A stretch of 64,000 nucleotides of DNA from Sphingomonadaceae bacterium 3R27E2-A (GTDB taxonomy: Bacteria > Pseudomonadota > Alphaproteobacteria > Sphingomonadales > Sphingomonadaceae). The notes beneath the pieces are model-generated. The model did not search any database and was not told where the DNA came from. It was given only the letters and a program-made list of their open reading frames with translations. The position numbers and the translations under genes were made by a program. Shown here piece by piece: positions 29,675 to 53,932 of the stretch (positions within the stretch are counted from its first letter, which is position 1; every line of letters begins with the position of its first letter). The stretch spans positions 1 through 64,000 of the forward strand of contig SCNT01000011.1 of NCBI GenBank assembly GCA_005503165.1, read 5' to 3'.

Positions 29675-29755
29675 CGTGATCCCCGGCGAAAGCCGGGGGC
29701 CATGAGGGGAGGGCCGTGCTCGCCATCTGGGCCCCGGCTTTCGCCGGGGATCACG
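29675..29755. repeat. Palindromic repeat, CCCCGGCGAAAGCCGGGG family
   Basis: CGTGATCCCCGGCGAAAGCC at the left end is the reverse complement of GGCTTTCGCCGGGGATCACG at the right end. Each arm is itself a short hairpin. It lies between the ferredoxin gene and the next repeat, part of a 669-base non-coding stretch that also holds the SRP RNA. Confidence 0.85.
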
Positions 29756-52385: not shown

Positions 52386-53786
52386 ATGGCCATCGAACTG
52401 AAGATGCCGGCGCTGTCGCCGACGATGGAAGAGGGCACGCTCGCCAAGTGGCTGGTCAAGGAAGGCGACACGGTGAAGTCGGGCGACATCCTGGCCGAGA
52501 TCGAGACCGACAAGGCGACGATGGAATATGAAGCCATCGACGAGGGCACGATCGGCCAGATCCTCGTCGCCGAGGGCACCGACAATGTGAAGGTCGGCAC
52601 CGTGATCGCGACGATCGCGGGTGACGGTGAGGAAGCGTCCTCTTCCCCCGTTCGGGCTGAGCCTGTCGAAGCCCCGTCCTTGCCTTCGACGCCGCCGGAC
52701 GAAAAGAACGGCCCTTCGACAAGCTCAGGGCAAACGGAAGAAAAGGCCGAAAAGCCCGCCGCGACCGAACGCGCCTCCGACCCCGCAATCCCCGAGGGCA
52801 CCGCGATGGTCAAGCTCACCGTCCGCGAAGCCTTGCGCGACGCGATGGCGGAAGAGATGCGGAAGGACGACCGCGTCTTCGTGATGGGCGAGGAAGTCGC
52901 CGAATATCAGGGCGCGTACAAGGTGACGCAGGGGCTGCTCCAGGAATTCGGTCCGCAGCGCGTCGTCGACACCCCGATCACCGAATATGGCTTCGCGGGG
53001 CTCGGCTCGGGCGCGGCGATGGGCGGGCTCAAGCCGGTCATCGAATTCATGACCTTCAACTTCGCGATGCAGGCGATCGACCACATCATCAACTCGGCGG
53101 CCAAGACCAATTATATGTCGGGCGGCCAGATGCGCTGCCCGATCGTGTTCCGCGGCCCCAATGGCGCGGCCTCGCGCGTCGCCGCGCAGCACAGCCAGAA
53201 TTACGCGCCCTGGTACGCCAGCGTCCCCGGGCTGATCGTGATCTCGCCCTATGACGCGGCGGATGCCAAGGGGCTGATGAAGGCCGCGATCCGCAGCGAG
53301 GATCCCGTCGTCTTCCTCGAGAACGAGCTGCTCTACGGCCGCAGCTTCGAAGTGCCCGACGTCGAGGATTTCGTCCTGCCGATCGGCAAGGCGCGGATCA
53401 TGCGCGCCGGCAGCGACGTCACCATCGTCAGCTATTCGATCGGCGTCGGGCTCGCGCTCGAAGCCGCCGATGCGCTGGCGGCCGAGGGCATCGACGCCGA
53501 GGTGATCGACCTCCGCACGCTGCGACCGCTCGACACGGTCACCGTACTCGCGAGCCTGAAGAAGACCAATCGCCTCGTCGTGGTCGAGGAAGGCTGGCCG
53601 GTCTGCTCGATCGCCAGCGAACTCGCGATGGTCGCGATGGAGCAGGGCTTCGACGACCTCGACGCGCCGGTGATGCGCGTGTGCAACGAGGATGTGCCGC
53701 TGCCCTATGCCGCCAATCTGGAAAAGGCGGCGCTGGTCGACGCGCCGCGCGTGATCGCGGCGGTGAAAGCGGTTTGCAATAGGTAG
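52386..53786 (+). CDS. pdhB: Pyruvate dehydrogenase E1 component, beta subunit with N-terminal lipoyl domain
   Basis: 466 residues. Residues 1-80 are a lipoyl domain with the lipoylated Lys in [16 protein letters not shown]. Residues 81-135 are a linker that includes an in-frame palindromic repeat (encoded residues 88-117, reading [10 protein letters not shown] and [11 protein letters not shown]). The E1-beta catalytic body follows ([40 protein letters not shown]). The lipoyl-E1beta fusion is typical of alphaproteobacteria; the linker repeat is not. It starts one base after the pdhA stop. Confidence 0.97.
52648..52737. repeat. Palindromic REP unit inside the pdhB coding sequence
   Basis: The left arm CCGTTCGGGCTGAGCCTGTC GAAG pairs with the right arm CTTCGACAAGCTCAGGGCAA ACGG at 20 of 24 positions. 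This is the common sphingomonad unit built on CTGAGC-TTGTCGAAG. Its span is a multiple of three (90 bases), it contains no stop in the pdhB frame, and it falls between the lipoyl and catalytic domains. Confidence 0.85.
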
Positions 53787-53813: not shown

Positions 53814-53932
53814 CTCCCCTCCCGCAGGCGGGAGGGGTTGGGGGTGGGCAGCAACGTTGCAGTGGCCCACCCCGCTGCGACTAGGGCGCAAGCGCCCAAG
53901 TCTCGCTGCCCCTCCCGCCTGCGGGAGGGGGC
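53814..53932. repeat. Palindromic repeat, CCCCTCCCGCAGGCGGGAGGGG family
   Basis: Each end is itself a perfect palindrome (CCCTCCCGCAGGCGGGAGGG and CCCTCCCGCCTGCGGGAGGG), and the ends also pair with each other. Inner GGGTGGGC faces GCCCACCC. It lies between the convergent pdhB and TadE-like genes and may double as a bidirectional terminator. Confidence 0.82.

Follow-up and report, generated by a model that had tools for sequence, protein, structure and literature searches.

Palindromic repeats that are translated as part of a protein are already established, both as Rickettsia palindromic elements (RPEs) and as intragenic REPs. The RPEs were reportedly described by Ogata et al. in 2000. For different RPE groups lying at near positions, hotspots or a common origin have been raised in the sections of the article drawn on here (PMC3767692). 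Intragenic REPs with a GTAG or a CGTC tag are palindromic dimers located in conserved genes of many bacteria, where they encode 20-30 residues (Di Nocera et al. 2013, PMC3733652; here and below, as given in the cited portions of that article). Among their hosts are tRNA synthetase and truB genes of S. alaskensis, and also uvrA (PMC3733652). The same portions give no dedicated transposase for the CGTC units, report A-T at the first two stem positions and a CCA tail in most, not all, CGTC-tagged REPs, and equate RPE-6 and RPE-4 with CGTC families (PMC3733652).

We analysed an in-frame element in a window of 64,000 nucleotides (the whole stretch of DNA under study, to which all coordinates refer). 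The genus, with a set of 80 genomes, was taken as Sphingopyxis. Among the matches listed, Sphingopyxis panaciterrae comes closest of the named relatives (88% for PdhB). The 80 named PdhB loci are the best among the matches listed and form a non-random sample. The host gene and its element comprise the following features:

52386..53786, + strand: pdhB, pyruvate dehydrogenase E1-beta with an N-terminal lipoyl domain, the host gene (Pfam Biotin_lipoyl, Transket_pyr and Transketolase_C; start at the ATG at 52386, end from the open reading frame)
52395..52616, + strand: lipoyl domain, PdhB residues 4-77 (Pfam PF00364, Biotin_lipoyl)
52648..52737, + strand: inverted doublet of family I, 90 bp (core matches, own-genome and genus counts, arm comparison)
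52648..52675, + strand: left unit of the family I doublet (core CTGAGCCTGTCGAAG at 52657-52671)
52710..52737, - strand: right unit of the family I doublet, inverted (core at 52714-52728, - strand)
52650..52742, + strand: repeat-encoded peptide of 31 residues, PdhB 89-119 (in-frame translation, peptide match)
52812..53336, + strand: start of the catalytic part, Transket_pyr, PdhB residues 143-317 (Pfam PF02779)

According to Pfam and to the translated open reading frame, the element at 52648-52737 lies in frame between the lipoyl and catalytic domains. The original prediction had placed a palindrome here, and its coordinates, 90-bp length divisible by three, gene and frame all proved correct by open reading frame, Pfam and arm comparison. 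The palindrome formed by the two inverted units is imperfect, since 22 of 28 outer positions agree between the arms; a repeat finder with a 9-base seed listed no inverted pair for it. As RNA, the element folds with -40.6 kcal/mol (z -3.31), and none of 200 shuffles folded as well. The 15-base core, with at most two mismatches, has two matches in the window (shuffle mean 0.25; at least two matches in 3 of 100 shuffles). The evidence for a repeat is modest from the window alone and strong genome-wide. In the same genome, the core with at most one mismatch was found at 28 sites, i.e. 10 inverted doublets (20 sites) and 8 single sites, against one site for the reversed control. Exact doublets were present in 63 of the 80 genus genomes (0-75 each), and the reversed pattern gave none in any genome. 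A dispersed palindromic repeat is thus read in the PdhB linker, as had been proposed. Family I consists, as REPINs do, of two inverted units in a dispersed doublet.

We then investigated where family I copies are located. Of the 10 own-genome doublets, 2 are within genes (PdhB and FliK), the remaining 8 having no Pfam support for an intragenic position (overlapping frames scanned). Elsewhere, 45 copies were sampled, namely one per genome from 30 genomes (the first on the list) and 15 of the 75 in genome G063. Two of them are inside Pfam-supported genes, ValS (L226) and NuoF (L228), and 16 others span open frames, 2 of these ahead of a Pfam domain (L422, L225) and 14 without a Pfam match. Hosts were called by Pfam because codon-bias scoring of the flanks was unreliable: it missed NuoF, misassigned the strand of FliK and also picked out frames lacking Pfam support. 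In 35 sampled copies, the outer ends are mostly CGTTC (49 of 70) or CGTTT (12 of 70), unlike a GTAG or CGTC end tag, and the core-to-core distance is 62-72 bases. GAGCTT was seen in 61 of the 70 arms of these 35 copies. All 19 family I copies shown from PdhB, PdhC and ValS have GAGCC in the left unit, read as EPVEAP, which may reflect a subfamily in common or else selection acting on the peptide. Both query and filter favoured EPVEAP, yet no ELVEAP was present among the PdhB and PdhC linkers listed. The rule that coding copies always read EPVEAP holds for these three proteins and fails for a second E2, UvrA, CoaBC, NuoF and FliK.

Among the 74 readable PdhB linkers of the genus (6 of the 80 genomes have none, and row L181, without a lipoyl part, was dropped), 8 carry family I, 15 carry a second repeat, family II, and 51 carry neither. 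The repeat is therefore absent from most relatives. The original prediction had considered that all sphingomonad linkers might carry the same residues as ancestral protein sequence; on the contrary, both repeats are absent from these 51 linkers, and wherever the residues occur they come with the palindrome or a decayed copy, e.g. in S. panaciterrae (G017, strongly decayed) and G065. Family II, which goes beyond that prediction, is a doublet of the form GTCGCCCC[C/A/T]GC... unrelated to family I, and was found in the PdhB linker of other species; both families also occur in the E2 linker. Its head-to-head dimers share the CGTC tag, the 8-bp stem and the 4-base loop with CGTC-tagged REPs; its stem starts with G-C and C-G instead of A-T at the first two positions, and its tail is not CCA. 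Family II is also dispersed, with 1-70 doublets per genome in the seven genomes searched (control 0). A doublet fitting a loose family II pattern, of CCCCGGCGAAAGCCGGGG type, was seen at about 29682-29749 of the window.

No stop or frame break was found in the 74 PdhB and 76 PdhC linkers, so that, as for RPEs, the insertions are in frame in conserved genes (hosts by Pfam) and leave the frame intact. Repeat-bearing linkers exceed the others by only about 8 residues (medians of 46 vs. 38 for PdhB and 60 vs. 52 for PdhC). The expected gain of about 30 residues is therefore not borne out: some 30 residues are encoded by the repeat, which must largely have replaced Pro/Ala-rich sequence, unless that sequence shrank around it. 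Two PdhB linkers contain, by eye, palindromes outside the families counted. The first (L074, Novosphingobium) has a CGTC-like doublet. The second (L107) has a CCTCCCGC/GCGGGAGG hairpin, similar to a 22-nt fully complementary inverted repeat pair of CCCCTCCCGC/GCGGGAGGGG type seen 3' of pdhB in the window (53816-53837 and 53909-53930, 71 nt apart).

The repeat peptides recur in other proteins, as had been anticipated. In the PdhC linker between the lipoyl and E3-binding domains, 27 of 76 genomes carry a repeat (family I in 8, family II in 18 and both in G073) and 49 carry neither; L360 and L361 (G056, G064) were left out of this count. Both linkers could be read in 71 genomes, of which 32 carry a repeat in PdhB and/or PdhC and 39 in neither. 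Further in-frame copies of family I occur in a second E2 acyltransferase, which has lipoyl, E3-binding and catalytic domains (L362, L364 and L374 by Pfam, L363 by likeness), probably the branched-chain enzyme, in UvrA (L368, L369; Pfam), in CoaBC between its two domains (L365; Pfam), in ValS of two genomes (L226 by Pfam, L261 by likeness), in NuoF (L228; Pfam) and in FliK (L027; Pfam). The peptide queries used to find hosts were taken from PdhB and PdhC. At the family level, a PdhC query matched 13 of 199 genomes, and the linker could be read by pattern in 5 of the 13 loci.

Several particular cases were seen among these hosts. In G036 (L353), a family II peptide is also found in the second PdhC linker, between the E3-binding and catalytic domains. 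In PdhC of G062 (L291) and G007 (L343), a further, CCCCGGACGCGATCCGGGG-like palindrome splits the family I copy, giving a repeat within a repeat, in frame. The pdhC frame of G056 is divided over two contigs (L390, L360) at or beside the repeat, which may have caused a break in the assembly. The PdhC linker of L436 (G122, another genus), one of the five read in the family-level search, has the family I units in reversed order, SASSAQT before AEPVEAPS. Finally, a long frame resembling the glycyl-tRNA synthetase beta subunit by eye (L407, G031) contains a family II-like peptide that is absent from the L404 frame.

We consider it probable that dispersed palindromic doublets of two families entered the lipoyl linkers, where they are predicted to have been translated since, through a few old insertions followed by loss or exchange and by homogenisation of the arms. 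A dispersed, normally non-coding doublet would have entered the flexible PdhB linker that follows the lipoyl domain, its frame there giving a hydrophilic peptide rich in Pro, Ala, Ser and Glu, and would have been linker since then. An unrelated CGTC-tagged doublet would likewise have entered the PdhB linker in other Sphingopyxis, and both families the PdhC lipoyl linker. For lipoyl linkers, flexibility presumably matters more than the exact sequence, so that they could tolerate insertions that would be lethal at other sites. The intact PdhB copies of each family, with one length and alignable spacers, look as if they came from one old insertion; loss, replacement or exchange between species, perhaps also between pdhB and pdhC, may have followed, and the inverted arms would have been kept alike in DNA by template switching during replication, as the simplest route.

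To what extent a few insertions suffice depends on the distribution of the repeats on gene trees, which is patchy. On the PdhB core tree (71 rows; L180, L182 and L183, too short, were excluded), family I requires 7 changes, a number as low being reached in 109 of 500 shuffles (mean 7.8), and family II requires 10, which 2 of 500 shuffles reach (mean 13.9). Constraining either family to one clade was rejected (AU p 7.5e-7 and 4.6e-8, respectively; 68 rows, three long rows L177-L179 being additionally left out). On the PdhC tree (76 rows, quick method), families I and II require 7 and 14 changes, against shuffled means of 8.6 and 17.2. Since neither family is one clade and family I is no more clustered than under shuffling, a single insertion needs many losses or exchanges. 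Such patchiness would also be expected if the linker were a hotspot, with an independent insertion in each carrier lineage from its own resident repeats, an alternative that we regard as unlikely. The hotspot is consistent with the finding that PdhB linkers, like those of PdhC, house two unrelated families or more, with the other palindromes of L074 and L107, and with family II in the second PdhC linker of G036. Moreover, carriers have more resident copies: genomes with family I in PdhB or PdhC contain a median of 13 doublets (n=15) vs. 2 in the others (n=64; p 4e-4, kinship ignored). However, the intact PdhB copies are of one length with alignable spacers, in contrast with the 62-72 bases from core to core in the 35 sampled family I copies, and PdhB is A-type in G062, G028, G060 and G071, while the perfect resident family II copies listed there are C- or T-type. 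Conversion of the PdhB family II arms from resident copies is likewise unsupported in these four A-type genomes, among the copies listed.

The copies themselves point to few insertions. Gap-free alignments were obtained for seven PdhB family I copies (93 columns) and for 13 PdhB family II copies (78 columns) (alignment A1, for PdhB family II, is without L153 and L176, and alignment A2 without L117). The spacers of the PdhB family II copies are 41-89% alike pairwise (L155, misread, left out), and family I copies in PdhC and ValS are mostly at the PdhB spacing. Gap-free copies, alike spacers and a common spacing suggest, from the alignments, a small number of insertions and then loss, replacement or exchange. 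Beside the linker, no recombination tract was seen in 78-base windows, the ratios of same-type to carrier/non-carrier distances being 0.83-1.03 for family I and 0.93-1.21 for family II. As for a donor form of family II, the PdhB spacers match the 78-bp intergenic form no better than shuffles do, in a comparison where the L155 spacer had been cut at a wrong position.

The two genes of one genome were also compared. Within genomes, PdhB and PdhC spacers are 0.731 alike vs. 0.660 for permuted pairs (p 0.0027, n=8, phylogeny ignored), and the match in arm type is not significant (p 0.11, phylogeny ignored). PdhB and PdhC carriers co-occur (Fisher p 1e-5), an association that is weaker on independent pairs (about 6.9 same vs. 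0.8 opposite, median p 0.07). It is rather improbable that the lipoyl linkers of 2-oxoacid dehydrogenases form an exchangeable repeat habitat in which cassettes from several palindrome families would pass between E1-beta and E2 and between species, their retained hairpins serving the mRNAs of different subunits as a common structural element under concerted evolution.

We then investigated the pairing of the arms. In the 13 PdhB family II copies, 97.6% of the local stem cells are paired vs. at most 54.8% when slid, and 93.3% are paired when the copies are taken as one long hairpin. Sixteen cells are changed on both sides, a number reached in 0 of 500 shuffles; counted by pairs or by pair types, covariation does not exceed the shuffles (401 and 165 of 500 as high). 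Among 30 PdhB and PdhC family II copies (PdhB of G044 and G046 and PdhC of G051 and G002 left out), both arms are of A-T type in 14, of C-G type in 11 and mixed in 5. Columns 12, 18, 21, 60, 63 and 69 are third codon positions, and a further pair, 56-73, alters residues (Ala/Val, Ala/Thr). The family II arms thus stay complementary while mostly silent positions switch together. Columns 18 and 63, which both lie in local hairpin loops, co-vary, and this points to linked arms rather than to two separate hairpins. Perfect inverted repeats of 30 and 26 bases are present in two PdhB family II copies (L165, L124). For family I, one pair switches among the 7 copies, between U-A (4 copies) and G-C (3 copies), with a score reached by 10 of 500 shuffles. 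All these arm-covariation shuffles ignore kinship.

Paired arms might indicate that the repeat was domesticated, i.e. retained for a useful hairpin in the pdhB/pdhC message or for a useful linker peptide, which we judge quite improbable. Despite the divergence of the spacers, 93.0-96.9% of cells are paired in the 30 copies, whereas sliding leaves no more than 54% paired. Identity at silent third positions without covariation is 87-100% in the arms vs. 58% at third positions of the spacer, and the co-occurrence of PdhB and PdhC carriers fits as well. Nevertheless, 39 of 71 genomes have no repeat in either linker, and copies are decayed or interrupted in G017, G046, G051, G062 and G007. In addition, template switching homogenises arms without selection, according to the part of the source cited (PMC8604942), and switching between the arms would most simply explain their covariation, selection being unneeded, though compensatory selection may also have played a part. 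An ordinary ancestral linker, palindromic by chance, is extremely improbable and is rejected as the origin of the PdhB repeat: the low complexity and high G+C of lipoyl linkers favour chance hairpins, but this DNA also occurs dispersed, as a doublet family whose reversed control is 0, and 51 of 74 relatives are without a repeat.

For the few old insertions that we favour, we also looked for a mover. No Y1_Tnp/RAYT gene (PF01797) was found in the genome of the window, and a PF01797 gene is present in 15 of the 80 genus genomes. At 17 RAYT loci of the genus (52.7 kb), no unit of either family was found, which is weak evidence at this unit density, and no transposase linked to units was seen. With none in its own genome and no units at these 17 loci, mobilisation by RAYT is unsupported, and the association with RAYT that characterises REPINs was not found. 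The term REP unit, used in the original prediction, therefore fits only loosely: the element has two units, is without a CGTC or GTAG tag and lies in a genome where no RAYT-type gene was found.

The linkers of PdhB and PdhC are flexible tethers of the swinging arms of the pyruvate dehydrogenase complex, so that a core enzyme would have absorbed repeat DNA as predicted protein. With dozens of related genomes, some carrying the insert and others lacking it, this is a comparative case of dispersed non-coding repeat DNA joining a core metabolic enzyme, and it opens to testing how coding palindromes arise, are tolerated, are lost and have their arms homogenised. In-frame repeats may also be mistaken for conserved protein motifs (EPVEAP, VAPAKAG), which calls for caution.

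Compared with intragenic REPs, family II shares the CGTC tag, 8-bp stem and 4-base loop of the CGTC units, and uvrA is a host common to both systems, whereas family I is without such a GTAG or CGTC tag (PMC3733652, cited portions). The case that comes closest to two families sharing a linker is recB of two Xanthomonas, where different REPs lie at about one site (PMC3733652). The main text of that article, in the portions cited, does not name a pyruvate dehydrogenase gene, and PdhB may already stand in its supplementary host list. Among the matches listed in the literature searched, no paper on repeats in pyruvate dehydrogenase or other 2-oxoacid dehydrogenase linkers was found, nor were the core strings of family I in the texts searched. 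Like REPINs, the Sphingopyxis repeats form dispersed doublets of two inverted REP units with a hairpin; REPINs differ in being associated with RAYT and studied extragenically, while here no RAYT link was found and copies are in frame (Bertels and Rainey 2011, PMC3116915, cited portions). The coding palindromes of Nematomorpha mitochondria are also long inverted repeats within protein-coding genes, although mitochondrial, in the part of the article cited (PMC6649704). The RPEs are likewise dispersed palindromes in frame in conserved proteins, and differ by their length of 105-146 bp, their sequence and the reduced intracellular genomes that carry them (PMC2229807, PMC3767692, cited portions). 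Unlike RPEs, the Sphingopyxis repeats concern free-living bacteria and 2-oxoacid dehydrogenase linkers, and what is new, as far as we have searched, is that two or more unrelated palindrome families have repeatedly occupied these linkers across a single genus.
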